A DNA stretch of 64,000 nt from Acidobacteriota bacterium (GTDB taxonomy: Bacteria > Acidobacteriota > Terriglobia > Terriglobales > Acidobacteriaceae), in the NCBI GenBank assembly GCA_013289765.1, contig JABCZI010000013.1, positions 1 to 64,000 of the forward strand, read 5' to 3'. A model generated the notes under the pieces. The model was not told the DNA's origin. It did not search any database and worked only from the letters and a program-made list of their open reading frames with translations. Of the stretch, positions 7,765 to 12,692 are shown piece after piece (position 1 is the stretch's first letter; every line of letters begins with the position of its first letter). The translations under genes and the position numbers were made by a program.

Positions 7765-9090
7765 TCAAAAGCCCAGGAAATAACGAATAGAACCGAACCC
7801 GATGCCCAATAGGATCAGGGGAATCACCTTTAGTTTGAATCTTTGGAGTAGGAGGAGCGACAATATCACCTCGATCAAAGAGATCACATTGAGTTGCTTG
7901 AGACCTGCACCTCCTGATGGGAAGATCACCGCTTTCCCTAGAAATAGCGTTAGATCTAAGATCGCGCCGACCACAACGGCGGTGATCAGTTCCAGGACGC
8001 CTCCGATCATACGGTTGTCTTGGGTTCTTTCCACCAGCCGCGCTCCCGCGAATACGAAGAAGAAGCACGGCAGAAAGGTATAGAAGGTCGTCGCCAGCAG
8101 ACCCAAGGTTCCCATCCACAATGAACCGTGGAAGTGGTTGTACCCGGCCAGGAATCCGACAAAGGCTACTACGATGATCAGAGGGCCTGGAGTTGTCTCG
8201 GCGAGTGCGAAACCGTCCATCATTTGGAGCCTGCTCAGCCAACGAAGTTTCAACACCGCAACCTGAGCTACGTAGGGAATTACCGTATATGAGCCGCCAA
8301 TAGTCACGAAGGCGGTCTTGGTAAAAAACAGCGCGAGGCCCCGCCAAAAATGGAAGTCCCCAGCAAAGAAGTAGAACAGCGGCAACGGCAGCAGCCAGAG
8401 AATCAGGACAACCGCAGCCAACTTCATCGTCGGCCACAAAAGAGAGATAGGTTTCGTCGCGCCCGAACTACTGCGGATGTAATAGCTCTCTTCGTCCTTG
8501 TCCTCTTCGGCGCTTGCTTTGCCGGGGCGGTGGAGAAGGCCGGGCCGCACCGCCGTGAGAGCGATTCCCAGAGCAATGGCGCTGAGCATCACTGTGACCA
8601 GCGAGGCCTCAAAGAAGAACATCGCTGCAAACGCAGCTACTGCGACGGCCCCTTGAATCGGTCCGCGCACGGCCCTTCTGGCAACTTTCTGCAGGGCGAC
8701 GATCACCAAGGCGATGACAACGGGTTTTAAGCCATTGAACATCGCGGCAATCCAAGGCAAGCTACCGAATCTGACATAGACCACACTGAGTGCCAGCAGA
8801 ACAAACATGGAAGGCAGCACAAAAAGTGTTCCGGCAACAATGCCGCCCCGCTTGCCATGAAGCTTCCACCCGATATAGATCGCAAGCTGCTGAGCTTCGG
8901 GTCCGGGAAGCATCATGCAATGGCTCAGCGCATGAAGGAAGCTTCGGTTGCTGATCCACCGCTTCCTCTCCACCAACTCGTCGTGCATGATCGCGATGTG
9001 TGCGGCTGTACCGCCGAAGCTGATCCATCCCAGCTTGCACCAGAAACGCAGCGCTGTCTTAAAGGAAGGTCGCTGCGGTGTCTGTTTCAT
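7765..9090 (-). CDS. chrA: chromate transporter ChrA (long-chain CHR family)
   Basis: Inner-membrane protein of the CHR family; characterised members export chromate. With the ATG at 9090 it is 441 aa, normal for the bidomain form. The two homologous halves are visible: the first begins FKTALRFWCKLGWISFGG and has LPGPEAQQLA; the second begins FFTKTAFVTIGGSYTVIPYV and has ETTPGPLI. Several hydrophobic segments lie between. A charged loop (ASAEEDKDEES) separates the halves. The start is uncertain, because the reading frame continues upstream without a stop into the tail of the broken GntR regulator; 9090 is the first codon that fits the family N-terminus and has a G-rich stretch before it. The regulator probably controls it. 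Confidence 0.88.
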   Translation of the reverse strand: MKQTPQRPSFKTALRFWCKLGWISFGGTAAHIAIMHDELVERKRWISNRSFLHALSHCMMLPGPEAQQLAIYIGWKLHGKRGGIVAGTLFVLPSMFVLLALSVVYVRFGSLPWIAAMFNGLKPVVIALVIVALQKVARRAVRGPIQGAVAVAAFAAMFFFEASLVTVMLSAIALGIALTAVRPGLLHRPGKASAEEDKDEESYYIRSSSGATKPISLLWPTMKLAAVVLILWLLPLPLFYFFAGDFHFWRGLALFFTKTAFVTIGGSYTVIPYVAQVAVLKLRWLSRLQMMDGFALAETTPGPLIIVVAFVGFLAGYNHFHGSLWMGTLGLLATTFYTFLPCFFFVFAGARLVERTQDNRMIGGVLELITAVVVGAILDLTLFLGKAVIFPSGGAGLKQLNVISLIEVILSLLLLQRFKLKVIPLILLGIGFGSIRYFLGF

Positions 9091-9838
9091 CCCCCGGCAT
9101 CCCAGGTCCCGATCGCGAGATGTCGGCAAAAGAGTTCTCAACAGTCTGTAACCTTTGCGGTAGTAGAGTGTTTCGTAATCGACTGGACGGCTGCCTGTCG
9201 AGTAAGTTCGTTCAATGCGAAAAATCGGGCTCCCTGCTTTCACTTTTAGCGCCCTGGCAACTTCGTTCTCAGCGGCCACCTGCGTCCAATTTGTACTCCG
9301 CCTCGATCAGCGGAATATCGTATTTGCGTTCAAGGAGCGAAAAAATGGGCTCGACCTTTAGATTGTGGGTCATGATCTTCTTGCCGATCTCCAAGGGTAG
9401 GTAAGTCTCGTCGAAGGAGAGTGGAACGCCGTTTCCCAGGCGCACGCGACGAATTCTGACGACGCGCTCGCCTCTTGTCAGCTCAAGCTGCCGTGCCACA
9501 GTCGCGTTGGCAGTTACAATTTCCTTACCGATTACGCGGGCCGTTGGCTTGCGGCCAAGTGCGTGCATATCTTCTACAAATCCGCTCAGCTCTTTAAGGT
9601 CCTGCGTAATCTTTCGCCCAGCGACGAATGTGCCCCTGCCGCGACGAATCTCGACAAGACCGCGGCTCACAAGATTCTGAATAGCCCGACGGACGGTGAT
9701 GCGACTGACCCCGAATCGCGCAATGAGGCTGTCTTCGGTCGGCAGTTGGTCACCGACTTGAAGGTCTCCATCGGTAATCTCGCCAGCGAGGATTGTTTCG
9801 ACGCGCGCATAGAGAAGAGAGTCATGCCCCGCTGACAT
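9091..9838 (-). pseudogene. GntR/UTRA transcriptional regulator, broken by a one-base frameshift
   Basis: The N-terminal part (9269-9838) has a winged helix-turn-helix of the GntR family (GDQLPTEDSLIARFGVSRIT, VRRAIQNLVSRGLV, GRGTFVA) and the first half of a UTRA ligand-binding domain. It ends at a stop after KLDAGGR. The rest of the UTRA domain (VAAENEVARALKV, PIFRIERTYSTG, RPVDYETLYYRKGYRL) continues in the next frame from 9279. Removing one base from the CC pair at 9279-9280 rejoins the two parts as LDAVAAENEV, exactly as expected for the family. The repaired frame then runs into chrA without a stop. The start at 9838 is chosen because it puts the helix-turn-helix near the N-terminus. The break may be a true mutation or an assembly error. 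Confidence 0.82.
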
Positions 9839-10008
9839 GACGACATTATAACGTCGTATTAGCGTCTGAGTGACGGGCAAACCCTTGCTTAAGCGATAAA
9901 GGAAGGATTGCCGACCATCTGGACCGAGATTATCACCTTGACTCAATGTGAGTAAGGGCGTAATCTCCCTCGGGTCGAGGGATATTCGACCCGGACGGAG
10001 GTTTCGCG

Positions 10009-10827
10009 ATGTTTTGGGATATTGCGCTTCCTGTGTTGGCTGCTCTTGCACAGGGCTTGACTGGGTTCTTGGGATGGCGGGTGACGGTGGATGGAGTGAA
10101 AGAAGAACGGAAAAAGCTCTACGAATGGCTATTTGCCATCGCGTCGTTGGTGGGAGTTGTGTCTGTTGGAATTGCTGCGTATCGCGGCAGTCAGATTTCG
10201 CGTGATCTGGCCGACCTTAAGCAGGGACAGCAGAGCACAAATGCCGGGATTCAAACCATCGCTAATAATCCTCCTACTGTGGTAGTAAATCCTCCTGCTG
10301 TTACCGTAAATCCGCCACAACAGCTTGCAGCCTCTCTCCTTCGATTCGAGAAGCTAGAGTCGGCTCTTAGTGAAGCAGTAAACGGGCTGCCTACTGGACG
10401 TAGATTGGCCTTTGTGCCGGGAGCGACAGTACAACTCAATCTATATTGGTTGAACGACGGAGCGGTGACAGCTGATCGCGCTAAGGGGATGGCCGCTGTC
10501 TATTTAGCTCCAAATGAGACGAAGGAAACTGAAAAAGAACTCACTACCAAATTTAAGCAGATACTCAAGCGAGCTACTCCAGGCGTCGGCACAATCCCAA
10601 ATGGAGGACATACAGAATTTTGGTATACCGCTGAGTCTGATCGCGTCGTCACACAAGACGACATAGATAAATTGGCAAAAGGAACCGAGGTTTTGTATTT
10701 ATTCGACTCTCTGAGTTGGATTGATCCGACAGGCTCCCATTACATACACAGGTGCATAGCATTGCAGCACCCGGCATTTGATCCGGAAGTTTGGCATTTT
10801 TGTCACGACTTCTCTGATCATCGCTAA
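10009..10827 (+). CDS. hypothetical membrane-anchored protein, 272 aa
   Basis: I do not recognise this protein. It has two N-terminal hydrophobic segments (about residues 4-24 and 40-60) around a charged loop (KEERKKLYEW). A short heptad-like linker and a Pro/Val/Asn repeat follow (NNPPTVVVNPPAVTVNPP, about residues 87-104), then a soluble C-terminal domain of about 165 residues. The start has a GGAGG ribosome-binding sequence just upstream. Base use looks more A/T-rich than in the flanking housekeeping genes, which fits an acquired gene. Its stop codon overlaps a transposase relic on the other strand. Confidence 0.7.
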   Translation: MFWDIALPVLAALAQGLTGFLGWRVTVDGVKEERKKLYEWLFAIASLVGVVSVGIAAYRGSQISRDLADLKQGQQSTNAGIQTIANNPPTVVVNPPAVTVNPPQQLAASLLRFEKLESALSEAVNGLPTGRRLAFVPGATVQLNLYWLNDGAVTADRAKGMAAVYLAPNETKETEKELTTKFKQILKRATPGVGTIPNGGHTEFWYTAESDRVVTQDDIDKLAKGTEVLYLFDSLSWIDPTGSHYIHRCIALQHPAFDPEVWHFCHDFSDHR

Positions 10828-10868
10828 GCGGTTTTCGTCAGTTCTTTGTATTCGAGGTTGTCAGCATC
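10824..10868 (-). pseudogene. IS1595-type transposase C-terminal relic
   Basis: Reading the minus strand into the TAG at 10824-10826 gives DADNLEYKELTKTA. This closely matches the C-terminus of the complete transposase at 11628-12533 (SENLEYKDLVKAA): eight of the last thirteen residues are identical, including the core NLEYK. The match stops inside the end of hicA (stop at 10861). It looks like the stub of a second, older element of the same family, left where the toxin-antitoxin pair now ends. Confidence 0.55.
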
Positions 10869-11112
10869 CTTCAAGCAGCGAGGCGAACTCTTCTTTGGAA
10901 AGTTTAAGCTTGCTTATGTACAAGCCCATCGTGCCGCGAGGAATAGTGTGATTACCGTGTGGTTCATGGAAGGTAACAATCGGTGGGTCTCGATCAACGT
11001 TGACGAAGTCTCGCGCCGAACCACGTTTCTTGTGCTTGGACGGACCGTAGCCGAGTTTGTGGGCTACGCACAGGAGTTGTTCCCAGGTTAGGTGCGCTGG
11101 GAGTTGCACCAT
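10861..11112 (-). CDS. hicA: HicA-family toxin (mRNA interferase-like)
   Basis: Small basic protein of 83 aa. The C-terminal part matches the HicA fold, with the family histidine region and its sequel (FHEPHGNHTIPRG, TMGLYISKLKLSKEEF). In characterised HicA proteins this dsRBD-like fold with its key His cleaves mRNA. The gene follows the antitoxin with only two bases between the TAA and the ATG at 11112, and it has no ribosome-binding site of its own, so coupled translation is likely. A GTG at 11127 is an alternative, overlapping start. The order antitoxin-then-toxin is the reverse of the classic hicAB order but is known. The N-terminus is less typical, so HicA-like is the safest name. Confidence 0.72.
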   Translation of the reverse strand: MVQLPAHLTWEQLLCVAHKLGYGPSKHKKRGSARDFVNVDRDPPIVTFHEPHGNHTIPRGTMGLYISKLKLSKEEFASLLEGC

Positions 11113-11114
11113 GG

Positions 11115-11471
11115 TTAGGCTATGCACACCACTTTATGGTCTTGGAGTCCTGCATTGAACTTTACAAATGGCTGGTTCGACCCCATCTCATCAATGCTAA
11201 CGCGATGGTTTCGCGCACAGGCACGCAGGATGTGGGCGGTCTCATCCAACTTGCCGATTTCTTGCAGAGCTTCAAGGTGGGACATTACCGCATCCTGTAA
11301 ATTGGCAACTGCGGCCTCAAATGTATCGCCAAAAACGGCAACAGGAAGATCTACTGCTTCCCCATTCCATACTTTGTCTTCACGCCACAAACGCGCCAAG
11401 ACTGGTATTTCCAGAACCTTGGAAGCACTGTCGTTTTTATTTTCGCCGAAAATTTTCTCTAGTACTGACAC
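11115..11471 (-). CDS. hicB: HicB-family antitoxin
   Basis: Likely partner and repressor of the downstream HicA toxin. The 118-aa protein carries the partial RNase H-like HicB core: a strand with VLARLWREDKVWNGEAVDLP, then FGDTFEAAVANLQDAVMSHLEAL, which fits the family pattern of a 'LPG...GDT.EEA..N..EAL' module. No helix-turn-helix or ribbon-helix-helix tail is obvious, so autoregulation by this protein is uncertain. It is the first gene of the two-gene unit, in an island beside an insertion sequence. Confidence 0.68.
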   Translation of the reverse strand: MSVLEKIFGENKNDSASKVLEIPVLARLWREDKVWNGEAVDLPVAVFGDTFEAAVANLQDAVMSHLEALQEIGKLDETAHILRACARNHRVSIDEMGSNQPFVKFNAGLQDHKVVCIA

Positions 11472-11627: not shown

Positions 11628-12533
11628 TTATGCAGCTTTTACAAGGTCTTTATATTCAAGGTTTTCCGAGGCGAGCAGGCGTTGGAGCGTGTCCCGAAAC
11701 AGGAATTGATTCTTGCGATTGTTAAAACGCCACGTCATTTCTTGCAGGTAGGCGGGAAGATGTTTTACAGAAACTTTATGCCACGCGCCCACGACACCAC
11801 GCTTGAACAACGAGAACGCGGATTCGATAGCATTTGTGGTGACGCACAATCCGCCTTCGTAGCGGACATATTCTTCGGACTTGTGATTCACCGTCTTGTG
11901 CTTGCCGCGATACTTCGTCGTCTCGAAGTTGTAGAGCTTCGATTCGTCAGTCATGATGACATCCACGGTCTTGTCAACGTTCCGAGCGATAATTTCATTG
12001 ATCTTGTCTTGATTCAGGTTCGCGGCAGAGATGAAGTGAAGGTGTCCGCCACGCTCACGGATGCCGACGACAGGCGCGTGCTTCTTCCACTTGTCCGCGT
12101 TCTTCGTGTGACCGCCGATGTACATCTCGTCAATCTCCACGGTGCCAGCGAGTTTATGGTCCGACTCTTCCATTGCTTTGCGGATGCGGTGGCAGAGATA
12201 CCACGCCGTCTTGTACGAGATGCCGAGCATTCGCTTGATCTGGTTAGCGGAAATCCCTTTGCACGATTCGGTAATCAAATAGGTGACGAGAAACCACTTG
12301 GTAAGCGGCAGATGTGTATCGTGGAAGATCGTTCCCACGGTCACAGAGAATTGGTAGTCGCATGAATAGCACACATACACTTTACGGTCGGATACTGGCG
12401 CAACGTTATCGCTCTTGCACTTTAGGCAGCGCACGCCCTCAGGCCAGCGGAGATGCGTCAGAGCTTCGCGGCAATGCTCGTCGGTGCTGTACTTGTCGAT
12501 CAGGGCGCACAAATTTACGGGAGCAGAGGTCAT
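11628..12533 (-). CDS. IS1595-family transposase (ISXO2-like)
   Basis: DDE transposase of 301 aa. An N-terminal zinc ribbon is seen (CLKCKSDN and CYSCDYQF), followed by an ISXO2-like catalytic domain. Candidate catalytic residues are in EIDEMYIGG, MTDESKLY and TNAIESAFSLFKRG (E). The ORF is intact and full-length for the family, so the element may be active. The ATG at 12533 is preferred because it has GGTGA just upstream and gives the normal N-terminus (MTSAPVNLCALIDKY); an in-frame start at 12569 is less typical. A relic of a related transposase lies at 10824-10868. Confidence 0.93.
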   Translation of the reverse strand: MTSAPVNLCALIDKYSTDEHCREALTHLRWPEGVRCLKCKSDNVAPVSDRKVYVCYSCDYQFSVTVGTIFHDTHLPLTKWFLVTYLITESCKGISANQIKRMLGISYKTAWYLCHRIRKAMEESDHKLAGTVEIDEMYIGGHTKNADKWKKHAPVVGIRERGGHLHFISAANLNQDKINEIIARNVDKTVDVIMTDESKLYNFETTKYRGKHKTVNHKSEEYVRYEGGLCVTTNAIESAFSLFKRGVVGAWHKVSVKHLPAYLQEMTWRFNNRKNQFLFRDTLQRLLASENLEYKDLVKAA

Positions 12534-12542
12534 AGGGTCACC

Positions 12543-12692
12543 ATGAAGAAGCCGAAGTTTAAGAAGCATCCAGCGAAGATGACTAGCGACGAATTAGCTG
12601 AGGGAGTGTTCCATCCGAAGGTGCTCGAAGCCGCACGCAAGCACTTGGATGATTCCAATTTCCCGAAGAAGCCGCCAAAGCCATCAAAGTAA
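12543..12692 (+). CDS. small Lys/Pro-rich IS-borne passenger protein, 49 aa
   Basis: ATG-started ORF diverging from the transposase; the two start codons are only nine bases apart. The product is basic at both ends (MKKPKFKKHPAKM and NFPKKPPKPSK) with a helical middle (SDELAEGVFHPKVLEAARKHL). It lies inside the candidate IS limits, so it probably travels with the element. I know of no function. The strong amino-acid bias and intact frame support coding. A role in regulating or assisting transposition is speculation. Confidence 0.55.
   Translation: MKKPKFKKHPAKMTSDELAEGVFHPKVLEAARKHLDDSNFPKKPPKPSK

Follow-up and report, generated by a model that had tools for sequence, protein, structure and literature searches.

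The window analysed here, a stretch of 64,000 nucleotides from an Acidobacteriaceae genome, contains a broken GntR/UTRA regulator gene that reads in frame into chrA, a gene for a transporter. Does this locus encode a new fusion of regulator and transporter, or has an older arrangement of separate genes decayed so that their frames happen to meet? The features needed to answer this are all on the minus strand.

9839..9858 (-): operator-like palindrome TACGACGTTATAATGTCGTC around a TATAAT core; the regulator ATG follows without a gap
9281..9838 (-): GntR/HutC-type regulator, residues 1-186, with a complete DNA-binding domain and the first two thirds of UTRA
9279..9280 (-): extra base relative to relatives, giving a frame change and then a TGA at 9271-9269
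9158..9279 (-): rest of the regulator in another frame, ending ...VDYETLYYR
9157..9158 (-): junction where regulator homology ends; missing here, compared with relatives, are the final 16 residues of the regulator, doxX and the chrA operator
9091..9157 (-): chrA leader, homologous to the DNA directly 3' of the chrA operator in relatives (CAAAGGTTACAG...)
7765..9090 (-): CHR-family transporter gene chrA, 441 aa, intact, with a pair of Chromate_transp domains; start probably at ATG 9090, otherwise at GTG 9279

Two lesions in the regulator gene

The regulator frame runs on the minus strand from the ATG at 9838 to the TGA at 9271-9269 and encodes 189 residues. With 74 bits against a Pfam cut-off of 27 its DNA-binding domain belongs to the GntR family, and in the same frame UTRA scores 77.6 bits over profile positions 2-94 of 141 (Pfam). 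An orthologue from the same genus (genome G019), 89% identical over window residues 1-186, reads intact for 244 residues and covers UTRA profile positions 2-140. The window regulator has no complete UTRA in a single frame, due to a frameshift and a missing C-terminus. Both regulators score below the cut-offs of the NCBIfam models with which they were compared.

The frameshift lies at 9279-9280, where the plus strand reads CC. Compared with the G019 orthologue the window has exactly one extra base here (blastn), and the alignment with L071, a related chrA locus, gives the same result. These two alignments confirm the claim of the first-pass annotation that one extra base in this CC splits the regulator inside UTRA. 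The remainder of the regulator follows in the other frame and is one Ser codon (a 3-base gap) shorter than in G019 and L071. In this stretch the extended chrA frame carries VAAENEVARALKVK..., an 85.7% match to residues 187-228 of the G019 regulator (tblastn). We identify the tail as regulator because of this match, as its Pfam match to UTRA is marginal (24.3 bits against a cut-off of 23.8) and falls in an unexpected part of the profile (positions 18-56).

The broken frame is confined to the window's genome. The regulator was found at E <= 1e-50 in 19 family genomes (398 searched), and none of the 18 others has an internal stop within the matched stretch, although for two of them (G216 and G346), near contig ends, the match is incomplete or fragmented. 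Could the extra base then be a base-call or assembly error, in which case the locus would encode one long protein made of a truncated regulator and ChrA? In favour of this, the frame is broken nowhere but at one base of a two-base run, and both frames are otherwise open. However, no other split gene was seen by eye among 60 window ORFs (greedy pick, >=80 aa), and removing the base would leave the last 16 regulator residues missing and the frame continuing into the chrA leader. As such a fusion is also found in no relative examined, we consider an error improbable. Programmed frameshifting, which would join both frames on purpose, is suggested only by the overlapping-frame layout; the extra base has left no sign in any of the 18 other family genomes with the regulator, and the site GCA GGT GGC CGC TGA is, to our knowledge, unlike slippery sites. 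This explanation is scarcely credible.

The regulator has a second lesion that the first-pass annotation did not see, namely its missing C-terminus. The blastn match to the intact G019 orthologue spans only 9856 to 9158, and the last 16 residues of that protein have no counterpart in the window after ...VDYETLYYR. The DNA beyond the junction matches chrA leaders instead: the blastn match to L066, another related chrA locus, begins at 9156 with the last base of the L066 palindrome, and that to L071 begins at 9137 (blastn; a MAFFT alignment was also made). Judging from these alignments, the regulator is truncated and runs into the chrA leader whether the extra base is counted or not. We also considered that the leader had lost a start codon through an ATG-to-AAG change, and dropped the idea because at this place the chrA-less relatives G364 and L122 also have CAAAGG or CAAAAG.

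Over regulator residues 1-186, dN/dS is 0.15, 0.15 and 0.25 in three of the four comparisons, the fourth being saturated. These values are low, therefore any decay would be recent. The branch-specific counts of nonsynonymous and synonymous changes are 8:9 for the window, 5:25 for G019 and 12:16 for L071, and the window ratio may be a weak hint of relaxed constraint on the regulator.

A regulator-doxX-chrA module in relatives

In order to place the window among its relatives we compared 15 distinct related chrA loci, six from named records (L066-L071) and nine more from a search of the family (L086 and L088-L095). The first six come from Edaphobacter aggregans (twice), Granulicella mallensis, Granulicella sp. 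L60 and two Acidobacteria MAGs. L084, L085 and L087 were dropped as duplicates of L066, L070 and L069, and L072-L083 (12 of 18 loci, with 45% identity or less, where the regulator was not found) lie outside the comparison.

The fetched DNA contains the regulator at 12 of the 15 loci; it is absent from the upstream DNA fetched for L066 (257 bases), L067 (~3 kb) and L093 (~1.5 kb). At eight of the 12 loci with both genes (L071, L088-L092, L094 and L095) a convergent doxX and the palindrome TATGACGTTATAATGTCATA lie between them, giving the order regulator, doxX, palindrome, chrA, which is shared across the family, with the palindrome in the divergent doxX/chrA promoter region. The doxX of these relatives scores 59.2 bits for the Pfam DoxX family. 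Regulator and chrA abut at three further loci (L069, L070 and L086), and at L068 they are ~1.9 kb apart with no doxX match. The window's genome, which is 97.6% complete, has no match to doxX, while all five control genomes do; in two of these (G410 and G288) doxX is on another contig than chrA.

The module may also be reduced from its other end. G019, G364, G099, G177 and G261 have the regulator and doxX with no adjoining chrA, as judged from 1.5 kb flanks (19 kb for G019), and keep the palindrome beyond doxX with 1-4 mismatches. In G019 a 107-base stretch is 70% identical to the palindrome and chrA leader of L071 (E 2e-5). The two losses may thus be reciprocal, of chrA in G019 and of the regulator in the window. 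The chrA-leader-like stretch of G019 is found at L035 11058-11156.

How closely is the palindrome tied to these genes? The copy before the window regulator is the sole match with <=3 mismatches in its 4.8 Mb genome (18 contigs, 4.80 Mb), and a reversed-pattern control gave 0 matches. With <=4 mismatches, TATGACGTTATAATGTCATA occurs <=150 bases upstream of chrA at all 12 loci where chrA is not directly next to the regulator, and at none of the three where it is; 300 shuffled palindromes gave a mean of 0.003 of the 12 loci and a maximum of 1. The regulator-side sites are weaker, with 3-7 mismatches to the consensus across 15 loci including the window. Upstream of the window chrA there is no such palindrome, the best site having 9 mismatches.

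That chrA starts right at the palindrome in most relatives did not hold up on closer inspection: nine of 12 chrA loci have an ATG or GTG immediately after it, and at only six of 12 is this codon in the chrA frame. Where it is, the arrangement would suit leaderless transcripts.

The intact G019 orthologue shares its GntR plus UTRA layout with NagR, DasR, HutC and PhnF of the GntR/HutC group, which likewise have a palindromic promoter site, whereas the window copy is frameshifted and lacks the C-terminus of UTRA. The window palindrome presumably differs from the dre-site. Another likeness is to the ChrB-controlled chr operon of TnOtChr, for which an excerpt of PMC3817168 describes an AT-rich imperfect inverted repeat that overlaps part of the -10 sequence. 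As far as that excerpt goes, the two systems share a regulator gene beside chrA and the placing of an inverted repeat at the -10, but the regulator there is ChrB, while here it is of the GntR/HutC type and relatives usually have doxX in between.

Taken singly, both parts of the window locus are familiar, the regulator as a decayed GntR/HutC repressor and the chrA product as a CHR transporter. Among the titles and abstract beginnings of part of the literature matches we found no GntR/UTRA-controlled or GntR-fused chrA, and the combination of regulator, doxX and chrA in the relatives may not have been described before. With its intact GntR/HutC regulator, its doxX and chrA, and one palindrome in the divergent promoter region, this module gives a control circuit that can be put to the test for a CHR transporter not governed by ChrB.

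chrA and the apparent fusion

The transporter gene itself is intact. Its product scores above both curated cut-offs, with 237.8 bits for PF02417 (cut-off 28.6) in two stretches and 217.7 bits for TIGR00937 (cut-off 171.7), and it resembles the ChrA family described by these models in its full length and two Chromate_transp domains, the two-domain long form of the CHR family. For the short ChrA/ChrB-type equivalogs NF053760 and NF053759 its scores stay under the cut-offs, and chrB-chrA loci differ from the window locus and its relatives in both regulator and partner gene. By these comparisons the protein is a CHR-family transporter with chromate as its predicted substrate. Against four relatives, chrA has a dN/dS of 0.13-0.21.

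Where does this protein begin? From ATG 9090 it reads MKQTPQRPSF, which is where the proteins of L069 and L086 begin (MNSSATPQRPSF). The frame is open upstream as far as GTG 9279, which would give 504 aa; the observation that the regulator tail continues in the chrA frame with no stop was therefore correct. A promoter prediction gave no promoter-like match just upstream of ATG 9090. It gave one minus-strand match inside the regulator (9481-9453), which is at chance level (3 found, 1.4 expected), and it did not call the TATAAT core of the window palindrome.

If the extra base is real, as we take it to be, the first-pass annotation offered two outcomes. That the regulator is broken and its repression probably lost agrees with our results. 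The other, a remnant of UTRA on the N-terminus of ChrA, is formally possible: ribosomes would stop at TGA 9269 and restart at GTG 9279, which overlaps the regulator end and, of nine in-frame candidates, pairs best with the anti-Shine-Dalgarno sequence (-5.9 kcal/mol), to make the 504-residue protein. That said, ATG 9090 pairs at -4.5 kcal/mol, so the energy difference is small, this ATG coincides with the starts in L069 and L086, and the extension is present in no relative. We regard this protein as a doubtful product of the locus. That through the rearrangement, and by such a stop and restart, ChrA in fact gained the remnant as an extension of its N-terminus in the cytosol is a very long shot; if true, a piece of a sensor domain would now sit on the pump itself.

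The fusion of about 690 residues proposed by the first-pass annotation is not supported. No single uninterrupted frame holds both proteins, with the TGA at 9271-9269 in between, and at the junction the regulator C-terminus is missing. In the 67-base segment 9091-9157 two of the three frames are open, and at the base composition of the window 22 codons would be open with a probability of 0.42; the in-frame link therefore needs no special explanation. Wherever both genes were seen among the relatives they are two separate intact genes (12 of 12 loci with both in the fetched DNA). In these sequence comparisons the open frame from regulator to chrA looks like a coincidence rather than a new fused protein, and the locus illustrates how an accidental open frame can mimic a gene fusion.

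A wider search for other GntR-UTRA-ChrA fusions likewise found none among strong chrA matches, neither in the 12 further genomes of the family whose chrA match reaches E <= 1e-100 (of 398 searched) nor at 28 chrA loci of other genomes of the phylum at E <= 1e-60 (396 searched). An open frame of more than 60 residues precedes chrA at seven of these 28 loci, and no Pfam family was found in those seven stretches. The regulator matched none of 27 phylum loci (L127-L153) by tblastn at E <= 1e-5.

Some loci resembled fusions and were rejected. A 687-residue open frame in G410 (L070) reads the regulator region in another frame, and the true regulator frame ends beside the chrA start. The open extension at L141 overlaps another ORF, methyltransferase-like by eye, in another frame, and that at L149 is antisense to a gene that by eye is metal-ATPase-like, again in another frame. 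At L127 and L151 the matches ran through a stop; the upstream genes there are separate, and the one at L127 looks ChrB-like.

A proposed history of the locus

What is left at the locus most likely derives from a doxX-chrA module under a GntR/HutC regulator; the regulator has decayed and an intact chrA remains without its own operator. From position and conservation we infer that the regulator of an intact module probably acts as a repressor, covering its own promoter and those of the divergent doxX and chrA. In the window lineage a deletion of ~0.6-0.7 kb, or a recombination, would have taken away the end of the regulator (its last 16 codons) together with doxX and the chrA palindrome, and the regulator frame would have been broken by the insertion of one base. 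With no palindrome left in front of it, chrA probably owes its transcription to read-through that starts at the regulator promoter; translation would begin at ATG 9090, and the normal effector-sensing control would be bypassed. On this history chrA has probably lost its normal repressor. It would be a clear example of a local rearrangement that removes a repressor and an operator while the transporter gene stays intact.

What if the truncated regulator still binds its own operator? As an effector-blind repressor it would hold the joined chrA transcript down rather than free it. The complete GntR domain (74 bits) and the retained palindrome at 9839-9858 would permit this, and an excerpt of PMC4333415 reports that isolated DNA-binding domains of NagR, itself of the GntR/HutC type, bind DNA with high affinity. 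The same excerpt, however, has the central sheet of the NagR effector domain taking part in dimerization, and this sheet is cut here. Permanent repression of this kind is possible but unlikely.

Returning to the history of a decayed module, a simple vertical deletion is not certain to have been the only event. The regulators of the window and L071 (residues 1-186) have an identity of 0.80 at third codon positions, their chrA genes one of 0.64, so regulator and chrA may have been joined by recombination. Between L069 and L086 the values are 0.81 and 0.85, and smaller gaps of the same sign as in the window occur in more distant pairs, for example 0.53 and 0.42 between L070 and L090 (16 of 78 pairs). 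Recombination would explain the difference between 0.80 and 0.64 no less well than a simple deletion.

The neighbourhood of the locus has some further features. A 313-aa transposase of the IS1595/ISXO2 kind at 11628-12569 (-), ~1.8 kb upstream of the regulator, is a possible agent of rearrangement. Of two small overlapping ORFs at 10861-11471 (-), one is similar to a HicB-like antitoxin (E 0.009) and the other to a HicA toxin (E 0.002); neither reaches its Pfam cut-off. Lastly, a 272-aa ORF at 10009-10827 (+), which has no Pfam match, stands out by a low GC3 of 0.45.
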